Below are positions 29,437-37,695 of a stretch of DNA of 49,091 bases, piece by piece (the stretch's first letter is position 1; every line of letters begins with the position of its first letter). The stretch is taken from positions 1 to 49,091 of the forward strand of contig JAPOYD010000012.1 of assembly GCA_026706735.1 (NCBI GenBank), written 5' to 3'. This DNA comes from Nitrospinota bacterium (lineage in GTDB: Bacteria; UBA8248). The notes under the pieces are model-generated. The model worked only from the letters and a program-made list of their open reading frames with translations. It did no database searches and was not told the origin of the DNA. The translations under genes and the position numbers were made by a program.

Positions 29437-30891
29437 TTGAACCCTCACGATAAGGCCTCCGAGTGGCGAGCGCCCGGCGCCGTCGTCCTCATCTCCTGCT
29501 ACGAGTTGGGTCACCAGCCCCTGGCCGTCGCCTCGCCCATGGCATTTTTGCGCGAAGCGGGTTTCCGGCCCTGGGCGATGGACATTGCGGCGGAGGATTT
29601 CTCGCCGGGGAAAATCGCAAATGCAAAATTCGTCGGCATCAGCGTACCGATGCACACGGCGCTCAGGCTCGGCGTGGAGGTGGCCGCGAAAGTACGCGAG
29701 ACGAACCCGGGGTGCCATATTTGTTTCTATGGCCTCTACGGCCTGCTCAACAAGGACTATCTTCTTGAAAACGGCGGGGATTCGGCCATCGGCGGGGAGT
29801 TCGAGTTGCCGCTCGCTCAGCTCATTCAAGGGCTGTCGCAATCAAACGGCTCCACCCAAGTTCCCGGAGCGGCCACGAGGGAACATACGTCCGGCCCGTA
29901 TCTCGAGAAAATCCCCCTGCTCAAACCTGAAAGAGAGGGACTGCCCAGGCTTCAGGCATACGCACACCTCGCAAGGGAGGGGACACACTATCCCGCAGGA
30001 GCCGTCGAGGCGAGCCGGGGCTGCAAGCACTTGTGCCTCCATTGCCCCATTCCGCCGGTCTACGAGGGCCGCTTCTTCATCGTGCCTCAAGAGAAGGTTC
30101 TAGAAGACATCGAAGATTTGGCGGCGCAAGACGCACGCCACATCACCTTTGCAGATCCGGATTTCCTGAACGGCCCCTCTCATGCGCTCCGAGTCGCCCG
30201 CGCCATGCACGAGAGGTTTCCCTCGCTCACCTTCGACTTCACGGCCAAGGTCGAGCACATCATCAAGCACGAGGAGCTTCTGCCGGAGTTCGCAAAATAC
30301 GGATGCGCGTTTTTCGTCACCGCAGTGGAATCTCTGAGCGACCTTGTTCTGCGTCATCTGGTTAAAGGTCATAACCGGGAAGACGTCTTCCGCGCCGTGA
30401 AAGCCGCCCGGGAGGCGAACATCTCCATTCGACCATCGCTGGTCGCGTTCACGCCGTGGGCGAGCGCGCAGGATTATTTCGATCTGCTGGATTTTATCGA
30501 AGAATACTCTTTAATCGACGAGGTCGACCCCATCCAGATGGCCATCCGCCTTCTGGTACCGCCGGGCTCCCATTTGCTCGAATCACCCCACATGACGAGA
30601 CATATCACCGAGCTCGATGCCGAGAATTTCATCTATCGCTGGGAGCATCCGGACGAAAGAATGGACAAACTGCACCAGGAGGCGCTCCTCCTCGCCGAAG
30701 ATGCGGCAGCGCGCCAGGAGGACGCCGCCGTGACTTTCGCGAGGATTCGCGAATTGGCGGCCGCTATTTTGGAGCGCCCCGATCAGGCAAGGCCAAAGGC
30801 CGCCTTCGCGCCCGATCGAATTCGCCCGCCTCGCTTGACCGAATCGTGGTTTTGCTGAGCGGAGCCCACCCAGGGCCAGTTGGCCCTCTAA
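29437..30891 (+). CDS. Radical SAM selenoprotein with Cys-Sec-Ala-Glu-Pro tail (CUAEP-tail family)
   Basis: A 484-residue protein when the in-frame UGA at 30856-30858 is read as selenocysteine (Sec474); it starts at a TTG and stops at TAA 30889-30891. Residues 14-135 resemble a B12-binding-type N-terminal domain. The radical SAM cluster motif is C196-x3-C200-x2-C203 (SRGCKHLCLHC), followed by a SAM-binding barrel. The end reads WFC-Sec-AEPTQGQLAL: exactly the tail after which the CUAEP/CCAEP-tail radical SAM family is named, in which relatives have either Sec or Cys. Conventional calling would stop at residue 473 and lose the tail. A hairpin with the geometry of a bacterial SECIS lies directly after the UGA. 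The reaction is unknown. Other genes here use TGG for Trp and TGA as a true stop, which excludes a changed genetic code. Confidence 0.9.
30859..30887 (+). promoter_or_regulatory. SECIS-like hairpin of the radical SAM selenoprotein
   Basis: Immediately after the UGA, a 13-base spacer leads to AGGGCC (30872-30877), loop AGTT and GGCCCT (30882-30887). The loop starts 19 bases after the UGA and has G in its second position, as in bacterial SECIS elements bound by SelB. The hairpin runs up to the TAA stop. Confidence 0.75.
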
Positions 30892-30906: not shown

Positions 30907-31257
30907 TTATTTCAAAACCTGTGAATACGTTTCCTCGTCGAAACCGACGATGAGGGCGTTTCGATGTTTGATGACCGGCGCTCTGAGCGTACCCGAGCGG
31001 CCCATCAACAGCGCCAGAACGTCTTCACGCGCAGGGTTTTCTTCTTTGATATTCAGGTGAATGACCTTTCTGCCCTTGGTCGAATACACATCCGCCACGC
31101 CATCCAGAACCGAGTCGACGTTGCCCTCATCCACCACGTCTTTTTTGGAACTGGCCTGCTCGGATACCTCGATACCATTTTCCGCAAGAAACGCTTGCGT
31201 TTTGGTGCAGGTCTTTCAGCCGGAACGATGGTAGTACCAATCCACTGTCTTCGACAT
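30907..31257 (-). CDS. ArsC/Spx-like selenoprotein with Sec-x-x-Cys active site
   Basis: A 116-residue protein from the ATG at 31257 (AGGAG about 11 bases upstream) that contains an in-frame UGA at 31218-31216, read here as Sec14. The sequence around it, WYYHRSG-Sec-KTC-TKTQ, puts Sec14 and C17 in the redox position of the thioredoxin-like ArsC/Spx fold, where relatives have Cys-x-x-Cys. The C-terminal part, MGRSGTLRAPVIKHRNALIVGF (about 85-106), carries the R-x-P segment typical of ArsC-like proteins. Without recoding only a meaningless 76-residue fragment starting at GTG 31137 would be called. A SECIS-like hairpin follows the UGA. The function is likely thiol-disulfide or arsenate-type reduction, but the substrate is unknown. 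It is convergent with the radical SAM selenoprotein, 15 bases apart. Confidence 0.9.
31183..31215 (-). promoter_or_regulatory. SECIS-like hairpin of the ArsC-like selenoprotein
   Basis: On the minus strand, starting 17 bases after the UGA, CGCAAG (31199-31194), loop CGTTT and CTTGCG (31188-31183) form a perfect 6-bp stem. The loop begins 22 bases after the UGA and has G at its second position, matching the usual bacterial SECIS geometry. It lies inside the coding region, as expected. Confidence 0.78.
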
Positions 31258-31371
31258 GTCTCAGAATCTCCTCACGAAACGAAAAACCCTCTCGTTGAAA
31301 AACCTTGAAGGCGGCTAAGCGATTCGGGGGATGCCAGCCTTCAACTCACCCGTGATGAAGGCGCAATTGAT

Positions 31372-32085
31372 TCAAAGATTCATTACGGCGACGGCCCGTA
31401 CGGGAGAGCCCGTGCCATCGCGAATCTTGAGCGGGAGCCCCACATAGAGAAATTCCTTGCCCGCCACCGCTTCGATATTCGCGAGATTCTCCGTGTTGTG
31501 GCGCTGAAGTTCCCGGCAAAGCACGTGACAGGGGAACGTCAGCTCTATGGTGTTCACGCCGGCATCGATGCTGGGCGCATCCTGGCCGATGTTCACCACG
31601 CCGCATTCGCGATAGAGGAAGTTCGCGGCGTCATACCCCAAGCCCGGGTACGTGCTTAGATAATCATCCGTCGGATAAGTGCGCTTGAAATGCCCGCCCG
31701 TGAAGAGGAGCGTGCCGTCTTTTGGGGGCGTGAGTTCCGTTGACGAAAGTTCATCCTGCAAGAGTTGTAAGGATATCTCCTCCATCGGTTCCACCTTGCC
31801 CGTGAAATCCAGCGCAATCGCCCGGGTGATGAACCACTCGAGCGGCGCCTGATCGATGTTCGGCGCCGTTTCCCGCTCATCGATATGGCTGACCGAATCG
31901 GTGTGCGTCGGTCCGTGATCGCACATGTGGAGCATCATGGCTGCATACGTGATGTCCTTGGGTTTGATCGGCGCATTGGCCGCGTCTTCGTGCCGGGCGA
32001 CGTATTCGATTTCGGTAGCCGGATGCCCGGGAAACCTGGGCGCGCCGGTATAGATCTCCTGGCTCAGATCGATGATTTCGTACAT
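31372..32085 (-). CDS. Cyclase-family metal-dependent hydrolase (kynurenine formamidase-like)
   Basis: A 237-residue protein. The ATG at 32085 has GAGGAG at correct spacing; an ATG two codons upstream abuts that site. The metal motif H57-G-P-T-H61-T-D63-x3-H67 corresponds to the HxGTHxDxxxH signature of the cyclase/KynB family, whose members hydrolyse amides, lactones or cyclic intermediates. Start (MYEIIDLSQEIYTGAPRFPG) and length are typical. It lies downstream of the luciferase-like monooxygenase gene, separated by a terminator, and may act on products of that enzyme. The substrate is not known. Confidence 0.88.
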   Translation of the reverse strand: MYEIIDLSQEIYTGAPRFPGHPATEIEYVARHEDAANAPIKPKDITYAAMMLHMCDHGPTHTDSVSHIDERETAPNIDQAPLEWFITRAIALDFTGKVEPMEEISLQLLQDELSSTELTPPKDGTLLFTGGHFKRTYPTDDYLSTYPGLGYDAANFLYRECGVVNIGQDAPSIDAGVNTIELTFPCHVLCRELQRHNTENLANIEAVAGKEFLYVGLPLKIRDGTGSPVRAVAVMNL

Positions 32086-32110
32086 GCTCATCTCCTCAAA
32101 AACATTATGC

Positions 32111-32139
32111 AAAACCCCCGCATGCGGATGCGGGGGCTT
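32111..32139 (-). terminator. Hairpin terminator between the LLM oxidoreductase and cyclase genes
   Basis: On the minus strand CCCCCGCAT, a four-base loop and ATGCGGGGG form a perfect 9-bp stem, followed by TTTT. The short T-run suggests that some read-through into the cyclase gene could occur. Confidence 0.7.
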
Positions 32140-32154
32140 CATCGTTAACAAATA

Positions 32155-33399
32155 TCAGGCGACGCCACCGACCGTGACGCCGTTCGACACCGGACACTCC
32201 AGGTCGGGCCAGACTTTCGTCATGAACGTTTCCAACTCATAAATGACTTCTTCCTTGGGGCATTGCGCGTAGTGCCAAATCAGGGTGATGAACTCGGCAG
32301 GCACTTTTTCGTACGTTTCCTCCCATTCGCGCTTGAGCTTGTCCACCGGACCACCAAGGAAGATTCCGCTTTCCTTGATATTCTGGATCCAGTCGATGCT
32401 TTCCGTGTCGTCGGGGAACTGCGGGAAGAAGGGTACGTAGAAGTTCTGGTAGATATCCTGATCGTATTTCCTGAGCTTCTCGTCGTATTCTTCTTCGGTG
32501 TCCGTCACATGAATCCACCGGCAGACGCACTGCCGCTCGCCATGAGCGAAGTTGTGGCCCGCCTTAGCTGCCTCCTCAACGTAGAGGTGGGAGAATTCCT
32601 CCATCTTTTCCAGTTTTGTGAAATACACGGGCCGGAACCCGTGTCTCGCCGCGAATTTTATGGAATCCGGGCTCGCGCTCACGGCCTGGAACATGGGCGG
32701 ATAAGGCTCCTGGTAAGGTTTGGGAACAACGCTCACCTTTCTGACCCGATTGTCATCACCGATCTCGCCGATAGCGCCGGCGTCCCGGGCGCTTTTCCAG
32801 GCCGGATAATCGATGCCATCCTTATACGGGTATGGAATCTCATAATAATCACCCTTCACTTCCACCGAATCTTCCTGCCAGAATTTAAGCAACATCTCGA
32901 CGCGTTCTTCAAAGATGTCGCGGTTCTTCACGTCGTCGGCCCCACCGAGGGCGTCGGAGACAGTGGCCCGGGTGTCGCTGAACTGTCCCAGGACGTTCGA
33001 CCATCTGGACTGATACCCCCTTGCCAAGCCACAGAAGAACTTCCCCTTGGTGATGTGGTCGAGTATCGCCGTCTCCTCGGCCACGCGAATCGGATCCTGC
33101 GTCGCCATGACGTAACCCAGCGCGCCCACCCGCGCATTCTTGACATGATTCGCCCACCAAGCGTTGAGAACGCCCGGATTGGGACCTACCTCGTAACCCT
33201 CGGAGTGCAGATGGTGCTCAATGGTGCTGATACCCCAGACACCCATCTCGTCCGCGGCCTTTACGATGTCGACCCATTCATGAAGCACGTGATGGTACAA
33301 ATCCTTGTCCCTGGCCAAGGGCCTTTTCTGCTCGCGCTCCTCTCGGCTTTCCGTCGGCAGCATAGGATATAGCTGGATAATCACTTTGGGTTTTGCCAT
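32155..33399 (-). CDS. LLM-class flavin-dependent oxidoreductase (luciferase-like monooxygenase)
   Basis: A 414-residue protein. The ATG at 33399 has AAGGAG nine bases upstream and is preferred to a TTG at 33420. The bacterial luciferase-like TIM barrel is recognised from WVDIVKAADEMGVWGISTIEHHL (about 43-65), VMATQDPIRVAEETAILDHITKGKF (about 98-122), PPMFQAVSASPDSIKFAARHG (about 236-256) and the C-terminal ESGIFLGGPVDKL. Such enzymes use F420 or FMN, the latter supplied reduced by a partner; no reductase is encoded here. It lies between the MarR regulator (33 bases upstream) and the cyclase, suggesting oxidation and hydrolysis of one compound. Confidence 0.9.
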   Translation of the reverse strand: MAKPKVIIQLYPMLPTESREEREQKRPLARDKDLYHHVLHEWVDIVKAADEMGVWGISTIEHHLHSEGYEVGPNPGVLNAWWANHVKNARVGALGYVMATQDPIRVAEETAILDHITKGKFFCGLARGYQSRWSNVLGQFSDTRATVSDALGGADDVKNRDIFEERVEMLLKFWQEDSVEVKGDYYEIPYPYKDGIDYPAWKSARDAGAIGEIGDDNRVRKVSVVPKPYQEPYPPMFQAVSASPDSIKFAARHGFRPVYFTKLEKMEEFSHLYVEEAAKAGHNFAHGERQCVCRWIHVTDTEEEYDEKLRKYDQDIYQNFYVPFFPQFPDDTESIDWIQNIKESGIFLGGPVDKLKREWEETYEKVPAEFITLIWHYAQCPKEEVIYELETFMTKVWPDLECPVSNGVTVGGVA

Positions 33400-33432
33400 C
33401 GCCTTATTCTCCTTTCTCAACAGAGATTTTCT

Positions 33433-33975
33433 TCATCCTCGGGCGCCGGAGGCCAGCGCTTGTTTTGATAAATTCATTTTATTTTTCACTTTGTGGAGGA
33501 GTTTGGATAGCCTCTCTCTTTCATCGTCCTCCAAATCATTCATGAGGTCCGCTATGCGTGAGTAATAGTCCGGGAAAATAGCGTGTAGGCTCTCTTTTCC
33601 CTTGGGCGTCAGGCGCACGATGACTTTCCTCCTGTCACCATCGTGGCTGAAGCGCTCGATGAGTTCATCGCGCTGAAGTCCCTTCATCAACCCGGTCATC
33701 GTCGCGCGCGTCACGCCTGCCTGCCTGGCCAACTCCGACGGACTGAGACCCGAACCATTGTTTCTCATTTGGGAACGCAGCAGCAGCAATAAAACGATGA
33801 ATCTGCCCTGAGAAACGCCGTGATTGGCCAGATACGTTTCAAAGGCGGTAAGCATATCGCTGCCTACCTGCAAGAAAAGATAAAACAGCATGACGGAGGA
33901 TGTATCCAGAGAGGAATACTCCGGCACGAGTGGCCTGAAGTCTTCCTCGTTGGGCAGTTCTTTCATGTAGAACAT
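33433..33975 (-). CDS. MarR-family transcriptional regulator
   Basis: A 180-residue protein with the winged helix-turn-helix of MarR: LSPSELARQAGVTRATMTGLMKGLQRDELIERF (about 77-109) followed by the wing DGDRRKVIVRLTPKG. MarR proteins usually repress neighbouring genes and are released by aromatic or other small ligands. GGAG seven bases before the ATG at 33975 supports the start. It is the first gene of the MarR-LLM-cyclase run, expressed from a near-consensus promoter that overlaps a direct repeat, so autoregulation is plausible. The ligand is unknown. Confidence 0.9.
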   Translation of the reverse strand: MFYMKELPNEEDFRPLVPEYSSLDTSSVMLFYLFLQVGSDMLTAFETYLANHGVSQGRFIVLLLLLRSQMRNNGSGLSPSELARQAGVTRATMTGLMKGLQRDELIERFSHDGDRRKVIVRLTPKGKESLHAIFPDYYSRIADLMNDLEDDERERLSKLLHKVKNKMNLSKQALASGARG

Positions 33976-35124: not shown

Positions 35125-37695
35125 TTGGGCCTTCGCATCTCCATAGGGGCGATTATCGCCGTTCTGCTCGGCGGGACAGGATATTTCGCCCAGCAATCCC
35201 AATCGACAAAAGAACTGCTGCAAGAACGAGAGATTGAGCTTTCTAAAGAAAAAGAAAGTTCCGCAAAACTCAAGAGCGATATCCAGCGCTTCAAAGGCAT
35301 AGAACAAAAGGTGAAGGGCCTGGAGTCAAGGTTCGCAAACGTAAGCGCCTCCGCAAAGACGCGGATGGAAGAGCTGAGCAATCTCGTCGCCGAGAAAAAC
35401 ACCGCCATCGAGCAGGATAAAGCAAAACTTCTAAGCCTCGCGACCGCTCTCAAGGAAAATCAGACAGCTCTTGAGAACGAGCGCAAGGCGCGCGCCGAAG
35501 CCGAAAAAGCAAATCAACAAAACACCGAACTCGCCGGAAATCAGGCCGCAGAGATAAAGCGTCTCGATACCCAAGCCAAAGAGATGAGCCGGCTCATCAC
35601 CGAGAAAAGCGCCGACATCAAACAGCGAAAAGCCCAAATCAGAAGCCTCAAAGTCACGCTCGACATCATCAATGGCTCCCTCGAAAACGAGCGCAAGGCG
35701 CGCGCCAACGCTGAAAAAGCGAATCAACAAAACATCCAACTCGCCGGGAATCGGGCGGAAGAGATAAAGCGCCTGGATACCCAGGCTGAAAAGATGAGCC
35801 GACTCATCGCCGAGAAAAGCGCCGACATCGAGAAAGGGGCGGTGAAGAATCAAAACCTCGAGCGTACCCTCAAGCAAATCGAGGCTACTCTCGAAAACGA
35901 GCGTAAGGCGCGGGCCGAGGAGATAAAAGGACTCGAGGCCCAAGCCCAAAAGATGAGCAAGCTCGTCGCGGAGAAAAGCGCCGACATCGAACAGGAAAAA
36001 ACAAAGGCCAAAAAACTTGAGCGCACGCTCAAGCAAATCCAGACCACTCTCGATAACGAGCGCAAGATGCGGGCCGAGATGGAAAAATCAAATCGGCAAA
36101 ACGTCCAACTCGCCAGCACCCGCGCCCGGGACACGAAGCGCCTCGAAAAAGTCAGGGAACTTCTCCAGACGCAAGTACGCAGGATGCGCCAACTCATCGC
36201 GATGAAAAGCGCGGACATCGAGCAGGAAAAAGCAAGAACTCAAAAACTCGAACTCGCGCTCAAGCAAATCCAGGCGGCCCTCGATGCTGAGCGCAAGAGG
36301 CGCGCCAAGGCCGAAAAAGCAAGTCAGCAGAGCATCAAACTCGCCAGCGAACGGGCCGCAGAGATAAAGCGTCTCGAAAAAGCCAGAGAGCGTCTCGAGA
36401 CCCAGGTTCGCATAATGCGTCAAATCATAGCGAAGAAGAGCGCCGACATCGAAAAGGAAAAAACAAAAACCCAAAGTCTCGAGCGCGCGCTCAAGCAAAT
36501 CCAGGCGGCCCTCGAAACCGAGCGCAAGATAAGAGTGAAGGTTGAGAAATCAAATAAAGAAACCATCGAACTCGCCCAAAAACGGGCCGCAGAGATAAAA
36601 CGACTGGAACAAGTCAGAAAGATTCTCGAGACCCAGGCCCGAAAGATGGGGCAACTCATCAAAGCCGAGCAGGCAAGAGCGAAGAAACTCAACGTCACCA
36701 GTCAGCGCAAGGCGCCGGCCAAAGCCGAGAAATCAACTGCGCAAAAAACCGAACTCGCACAAAACCGGGCCGCGGAGATGAAGCGCCTCGAGAAAACCAG
36801 GGAAATCCTCAATACCCAGGTTCAGGCGATGAGCCGACTTATAGCGGAGAAAAACTCCACCATCGAAAAGGGAAAAACCAAAACCCAGAACCTCGAACTC
36901 GCGCTCGAACAAACCCGGAAAACTCTCGATATTGAACGCAAGACGCGCACGGAGGCGGAAAAAGCAAAGACCCGAAATGCCGAACTTGCAAGAAAGCGGG
37001 CCGAAGAGCTAAACCGTCTCGGAAAAGCCAGGGAACTCCTCCAGGCGCAGGTTCAAGAAATGAGCCAACTCATCGCGGAGAAAACCTCCGTGGCCGATCT
37101 CATCAGGAACAAGCTGAATCAGACAAATCTGAGCCTGGCTGAAACGATCAAAAAACACACGCTGGCAATCGCACGCTCTAAAGTCCTGGAGAAAAGAGCA
37201 CGCGAAGAAGCCGAACGGGCCAAAAAGCTGGAATCAGACCTGAAGGAGATGGACAGCAAGTTTCAGGAACAATCCATCACGCTGCGAAGAACCAAAGACT
37301 TGCTCCGCGTGACCTTCGTGAACAATCTTTTGTTTGATCTGGGAAGCGCCAGAATCAGGAAAAAGGGAAGCGAGGTGCTTTCAAAAATTGCGGAATTTCT
37401 CGGAAAACAAAAAGACAAAATGATACAGGTAGAAGGACATACGGATAATCGGCCCATCAAAGGCAATCTGCTCAGACGCTATCCCTCGAATTGGGAACTA
37501 TCGTTCGCGCGCGCTATCGCCATCGTCAAGTTCCTGGAATCGAAAAACATATCGCCTGAGCGCATGTCGGCGACCGGCTACTCATTTTATCGCCCGGTGG
37601 CGAACAACGACACCAAAGAGGGCCGCGCCAAAAATCGTCGAACGGAAATACTTCTCAGCAGCCCCCGGGTGCCGGTAGAAGAGGCGGCTCGCTAG
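35125..37695 (+). CDS. Membrane-anchored heptad-repeat coiled-coil protein with C-terminal OmpA/MotB domain
   Basis: An 856-residue protein from a TTG at 35125 with AGGAG eight bases upstream. Residues 5-22 form a single membrane anchor. From about 27 to 725 the chain is an uninterrupted coiled coil of tandem repeats recognisable by LENERKARAEAEK and RLIAEKSADIE; repeat starts are at residues 116, 186, 256, 309, 386, 463 and 601. The C-terminal 125 residues are an OmpA/MotB peptidoglycan-binding domain (LLFDLGSARI, VEGHTDNRPI, NWELSFARAIAIVKFL, NRRTEILL). It should span the periplasm between inner membrane and cell wall. The exact role is unknown; related layouts occur in MotB-like and cell-envelope spacer proteins. 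Transcription may start at TATAAT 35068-35073. Confidence 0.88.
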   Translation: MGLRISIGAIIAVLLGGTGYFAQQSQSTKELLQEREIELSKEKESSAKLKSDIQRFKGIEQKVKGLESRFANVSASAKTRMEELSNLVAEKNTAIEQDKAKLLSLATALKENQTALENERKARAEAEKANQQNTELAGNQAAEIKRLDTQAKEMSRLITEKSADIKQRKAQIRSLKVTLDIINGSLENERKARANAEKANQQNIQLAGNRAEEIKRLDTQAEKMSRLIAEKSADIEKGAVKNQNLERTLKQIEATLENERKARAEEIKGLEAQAQKMSKLVAEKSADIEQEKTKAKKLERTLKQIQTTLDNERKMRAEMEKSNRQNVQLASTRARDTKRLEKVRELLQTQVRRMRQLIAMKSADIEQEKARTQKLELALKQIQAALDAERKRRAKAEKASQQSIKLASERAAEIKRLEKARERLETQVRIMRQIIAKKSADIEKEKTKTQSLERALKQIQAALETERKIRVKVEKSNKETIELAQKRAAEIKRLEQVRKILETQARKMGQLIKAEQARAKKLNVTSQRKAPAKAEKSTAQKTELAQNRAAEMKRLEKTREILNTQVQAMSRLIAEKNSTIEKGKTKTQNLELALEQTRKTLDIERKTRTEAEKAKTRNAELARKRAEELNRLGKARELLQAQVQEMSQLIAEKTSVADLIRNKLNQTNLSLAETIKKHTLAIARSKVLEKRAREEAERAKKLESDLKEMDSKFQEQSITLRRTKDLLRVTFVNNLLFDLGSARIRKKGSEVLSKIAEFLGKQKDKMIQVEGHTDNRPIKGNLLRRYPSNWELSFARAIAIVKFLESKNISPERMSATGYSFYRPVANNDTKEGRAKNRRTEILLSSPRVPVEEAAR
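35470..36970 (+). repeat. Tandem coding repeats of 210 and 231 bp
   Basis: Within the coiled-coil gene, units start at 35470, 35680, 35890, 36049, 36280, 36511 and, after a degraded unit, 36925. Spacings of 210, 210, 159, 231 and 231 bases equal 70, 70, 53, 77 and 77 residues; 70 and 77 are 10 and 11 heptads. The 53-residue unit has lost 17 residues. Confidence 0.85.

Follow-up and report, generated by a model that had tools for sequence, protein, structure and literature searches.

The stretch of DNA analysed here (49,091 nucleotides of a Nitrospinota bacterium, referred to as the window) contains on its minus strand a frame in which 13 codons, beginning with the ATG at 31257-31255, lead to a TGA at 31218-31216. 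Beyond this TGA, 102 sense codons follow up to a TAA at 30909-30907. Read through, the frame codes for a small protein related to ArsC and Spx, and the following features were assigned to it:

30907-31257, minus strand: predicted ArsC/Spx-like selenoprotein gene of 116 residues, TAA included, identified by its family model, its copies in the phylum and the comparison with relatives

31216-31218, minus strand: predicted UGA selenocysteine codon, Sec14 of the motif Sec14-Lys-Thr-Cys17

31268-31272, minus strand: Shine-Dalgarno-like AGGAG, located 10 nt 5' of the ATG and retained in 7/7 genes compared

31183-31199, minus strand: SECIS-like hairpin with a 6-bp stem (CGCAAG/CTTGCG) and a 5-nt loop (CGTTT), spanning nucleotides 17-33 after the UGA, assigned by comparison

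A sequence-only reading of this DNA had proposed that an in-frame UGA splits an ArsC/Spx-like protein, separating a 13-residue start, equipped with ATG and AGGAG, from an otherwise orphan 76-residue fragment. The UGA was confirmed to be in frame, read-through yields the full 116 residues, and start, ribosome binding site and fragment are each present as described. Without read-through, a mechanical list of open reading frames retains nothing but the 76-residue fragment in this frame (30907-31137). Judged by the codons 3' of the UGA, which display a dN/dS of 0.14-0.26 against six close relatives, the frame behind the UGA is under purifying selection.

With the UGA read as cysteine, the protein matches the NCBIfam model NF041106 (ArsC_rel_Se_1, 'ArsC family (seleno)protein') with 121.5 bits at a cut-off of 85. 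The active site specified for this family is present as U14-K-T-C17, and selenocysteine or cysteine at position 14 as well as Cys17 are found in 51/51 aligned sequences. In the own phylum, 11 matches above the cut-off are present in 11 of 18 genomes, that of the window included, and all of them contain one TGA. A sample of 392 genomes of the Planctomycetota group revealed 81 such matches in 80 genomes (70 with one TGA, 11 without), and 377 genomes of the Myxococcota group revealed 79 in 78 genomes (78 with one TGA, one without). Taken together, 159 of the 171 matches above the cut-off in the three phylum samples carry one TGA, the position of which was checked base by base in the fetched loci, namely 44 Sec loci, 41 of them among the 159. 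Seven of the 12 matches lacking a TGA were fetched, and in all seven a cysteine codon (TGC or TGT) occupies the column of the UGA. Cysteine at this column in the homologues is what the sequence-only reading had wanted to see in an alignment. Its view that Sec-containing forms of this fold are rare did not hold, since the family is mostly Sec and already catalogued.

The table of known and predicted families of selenoproteins in a review from 2026, in the excerpt available, lists NF041106 as 'Arsenate reductase-like protein' with the motif UxxC, apparently under the section 'Predicted with high confidence' (PMC13188914). The same name and motif appear among the predicted families in an excerpt of a review from 2022 (PMC9312934). 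Furthermore, an ocean survey from 2008 contains, in the part available, an 'Arsenate reductase 2' with UxxC and 42 in the first count column (PMC2398784), which we infer is probably the same family. Since the family stands in NCBIfam and in the review tables, this kind of protein is already known, and the gene adds a member to a catalogued selenoprotein family and does not represent a new kind. An experimental study of NF041106 did not turn up in the literature listings searched.

The protein shares with this family the score above the cut-off, the UxxC site, the UGA column and the SECIS-like hairpin in the copies examined, and no essential difference from the family was seen. Its identity is 84-91% to copies within the genus and 30-50% to the aligned copies outside of it. 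We hold with high confidence that the predicted product is a selenoprotein and a member of NF041106, and it is very probable that the in-frame UGA indeed encodes selenocysteine.

The sequence-only reading had also named selA, selB, selD and tRNA-Sec as genes to be sought in the same genome. All four were detected over their curated cut-offs, with 578.2 bits for selA, 382.9 bits for selB, 334.3 bits for selD and 75.8 bits for tRNA-Sec. Among 14 control genomes, the same models exceeded their cut-offs in five (tRNA-Sec), two (selB), two (selD) and one (selA). The selD match lies outside the window (G000:C112:1964-2926, L063) and contains one in-frame TGA, because of which the selenophosphate synthetase of this genome is itself probably a selenoprotein. 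UGA also serves as an ordinary stop in this genome, since the upstream gene 31372-32151 terminates in TGA. On this ground, and because the Sec machinery is present, a genome-wide recoding of UGA was rejected.

The hairpin was claimed to lie at the distance known for bacterial SECIS elements, and it does: the 6-bp stem closes the loop CGTTT, which starts at nucleotide 23 after the UGA. When the window was scanned with Rfam at gathering thresholds, one tRNA and no SECIS family were returned; therefore, the evidence for the hairpin rests on comparison. For this, 51 loci were used (44 Sec and 7 Cys forms), of which L073, L087, L091, L093, L102 and L106 were placed by coordinates. In line with the proposed check of the bases after the UGA, the hairpin is stronger in the Sec forms: the mean fold energy of nucleotides 13-37 after the UGA is -10.2 kcal/mol in the 44 Sec forms (recodings: mean -6.4, mean z -1.36) and -3.7 kcal/mol in the 7 Cys forms (recodings: mean -3.9, z +0.22), with a Mann-Whitney P of 4e-5 that is uncorrected for relatedness.

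Taken alone, the hairpin of the window is modestly unusual, since at -7.3 versus a mean of -4.8 for its recodings (z -1.3) it is equalled in stability by 8.3% of 300 synonymous recodings. It thereby fails the 5% recoding test, which 8 of the 44 Sec forms pass individually. One Sec form (L074) reaches only -3.8 kcal/mol, and L062 and L085 keep one of the six pairs in the register of the window and fold only interrupted hairpins. The stem sequence varies by lineage, with CCCAGG/CCTGGG in L077, CGTCCA/TGGACG in L099 and L105 and CGCGGG/CTCGCG in L094, and the predicted loop position stays within nucleotides 23-29 after the UGA across lineages. In 16 sequences, the stem is paired in 93.8% of cells compared to 22-66% when slid by one to three columns. 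Covariation in the same 16 sequences is thin, with a compensatory change in one pair only and an equal score in 26 of 500 shuffles; a control slid by -2 even outdoes the structure (0.188 versus 0.137, with double changes in three pairs versus one). It is the comparison across the family that gives the predicted hairpin of the window its weight.

An extra feature of the locus is a second predicted selenoprotein gene, which converges on the first one from the opposite strand:

29437-30891, plus strand: predicted CUAEP-tail radical SAM selenoprotein gene, UGA read through to a TAA at 30889-30891, start codon uncertain

30856-30858, plus strand: predicted selenocysteine codon (UGA) within the C-U-A-E-P tail of the radical SAM protein

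30872-30887, plus strand: SECIS-like hairpin AGGGCCA-GT-TGGCCCT of the radical SAM gene

The protein belongs to NF040546 by its 639.6 bits (cut-off 500) and by the CUAEP tail that appears after read-through. A plain listing of open reading frames ends this gene at 473 aa. One TGA is present in 15 of the 16 copies above the cut-off in the own phylum, the sixteenth lying at a contig end without the tail, and in 5/5 copies of the Planctomycetota group. All seven pairs of the hairpin are kept in 14/14 sequences, with a compensatory change in two of the seven. For the Planctomycetota group, the comparison covered four loci (L108, L110, L111 and L112, but not L109); other stems fold at the same place in three of the four (L110, L111 and L112), and the predicted fold differs in L108. 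The distance between this hairpin and the 3' end of the ArsC-like gene is about 20 bases. A paper naming CUAEP or NF040546 was not found in the literature searched, which left two possibly relevant Haft papers uncovered. With 306.2 bits against the ArsL model (cut-off 450), the CUAEP protein is related, by sequence, to ArsL, which is described in an excerpt of PMC8552651 as an arsinothricin enzyme that acts on arsenite.

Of the 11 genomes of the phylum that carry the ArsC-like gene, 10 have the two genes next to each other in convergent orientation; in the remaining one (G012) they are located on different contigs. Because of this arrangement, a functional module was considered. Five of the 16 phylum genomes with a CUAEP gene above the cut-off lack an ArsC-like match, an absence that is soft as these genomes are drafts, and a CUAEP gene above the cut-off was not found in the five genomes of L058-L062. 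In the Planctomycetota group, 80 of 392 genomes contain the ArsC-like gene, five the CUAEP gene and one both, where about one would be expected by chance, and in this single genome (G103) the two genes lie on different contigs. Here, CUAEP was searched at E 1e-40, and the two draws of 392 genomes were taken as identical since their handles agree. The module was rejected, since convergent genes are not co-transcribed and a co-occurrence beyond chance was not seen in the Planctomycetota group.

It is therefore very doubtful that the pair forms an organoarsenic (or organoselenium) module, in which the ArsC-like selenoprotein would make a reduced oxyanion and the CUAEP protein would modify it. In such a module, the ArsL-like CUAEP protein would transfer a SAM-derived group to the reduced oxyanion, and its C-terminal Cys-Sec pair would serve as metalloid ligand. 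If true, this would represent a pathway of metalloid chemistry in which two consecutive steps use selenocysteine, to our knowledge the first of its kind.

Outside the own phylum, ORF clustering revealed no conserved operon partner of the ArsC-like gene. The neighbour clusters comprise at most 7 of 49 loci, the largest being L077-L080, L083, L089 and L090; clusters of the ArsC-like frame or its antisense are excluded, the ORFs are approximate, and in 39 of the 49 loci the flanks are about 1.5 kb or less per side. Within the window, the same-strand upstream genes (31372-33975, minus strand) encode a putative cyclase, a luciferase-like monooxygenase and a MarR-type regulator, homologues of which lie upstream in four, three and five, respectively, of the five relatives L053-L057. 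Further away, a long coiled-coil-like ORF with repeated segments is present (35125-37695, plus strand), the C-terminal part of which we take, by eye, to look OmpA-like.

The structure of the ArsC-like protein was predicted with a pLDDT of 91.2 and a pTM of 0.83 from an alignment of 12 sequences. The top ten fold matches are Spx and ArsC-related chains with Spx leading, at modest agreement (TM 0.50-0.57, rmsd above 5). Within the 51 aligned sequences, Arg11, Sec/Cys14, Cys17, Gly86, Gly89, Leu91, Arg92, Pro94, Gly105 and Phe106 are invariant; the 35 distant loci in this set, from the Planctomycetota and Myxococcota groups, were those with the highest scores, a choice that biases the set towards conservation. 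The UXX-star glutaredoxin-like selenoproteins are likewise small and weakly similar to the protein, which stays far below the cut-offs of their models (20.9 versus 66 for NF041212 and 14.4 versus 72 for NF041114).

Mechanistically, the hairpin that starts 17 nt downstream of the UGA would direct SelB and Sec-tRNA(Sec) to insert selenocysteine at this codon, the fourteenth of the gene. For the product, a thioredoxin-like fold of the ArsC/Spx type is predicted, in which Sec14 and Cys17 would take the places of the first and the second cysteine, respectively, of the Spx CxxC motif. In an active site shaped by the invariant Arg11, Arg92 and Pro94, the selenolate of Sec14 may attack a substrate in its oxidised state, which is probably either a disulfide or a small molecule, arsenate for example. 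The intermediate would be resolved by Cys17 as a Se-S bond, which cellular thiols or thioredoxin could then re-reduce. A stand-alone selenol/thiol oxidoreductase is the role that we consider probable, and most likely this oxidoreductase stands nearer to Spx than to the classical ArsC enzymes.

This closeness raises the question whether the protein is a regulator that, like Spx, binds RNA polymerase, so that the Sec-Cys pair would be an oxidant-sensing redox switch and not an enzyme site. Among relatives with a solved structure, the five that match best in sequence are Spx chains (best E 6.4e-7), Spx also heads the fold matches, UxxC aligns with the CxxC of Spx, and a search of the genome with PF03960 found no match besides this protein. 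It also shares with the Spx families (TIGR01617, PRK01655) the predicted fold, the position of the redox pair, an arginine and a proline near the active site and a VGF/VGY-type C-terminal motif. On the contrary, it carries selenocysteine in place of the first cysteine and scores below the curated Spx cut-offs, with 49.4 versus 75.05 for TIGR01617 and 35.9 versus 123 for PRK01655, and two further Spx family models are likewise not reached (34.8 versus 159 and 30.5 versus 152). Furthermore, selenocysteine in proteins is usually retained for catalysis rather than for sensing, and a role as regulator appears improbable on this ground as well. Somewhat less improbable, yet still unlikely, is a true arsenate reductase in which selenocysteine replaces the catalytic cysteine of ArsC. 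The protein does score above the cut-off of the Pfam ArsC family (34.4 versus 24), its Sec occupies the nucleophile position of ArsC, and its radical SAM neighbour is related to an enzyme of arsenite, as described above for ArsL. Nevertheless, TIGR00014, which the excerpt of PMC13188914 names as the model of arsenate reductase, is absent from its matches up to E = 1, its motif is UxxC and not the CxxS stated for E. coli ArsC in an excerpt of PMC2757866, and family models recognised no arsenic gene among the neighbours (six proteins of the window).

Each of these roles presupposes that the UGA is read through. The fragmentation of the source assembly into 191 contigs might raise the suspicion that it is instead a normal stop codon, a mistake of the assembly or a lesion of a pseudogene. 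But the same UGA is present in separate assemblies and in distant phyla, selection continues past it, and the genome encodes the Sec machinery, which together make this explanation extremely improbable.

A selenocysteine codon was detectable for a reader from the raw sequence, where a plain listing of open reading frames keeps only a piece of 76 residues. With selenocysteine dominating the family, NF041106 is of some interest to the field.
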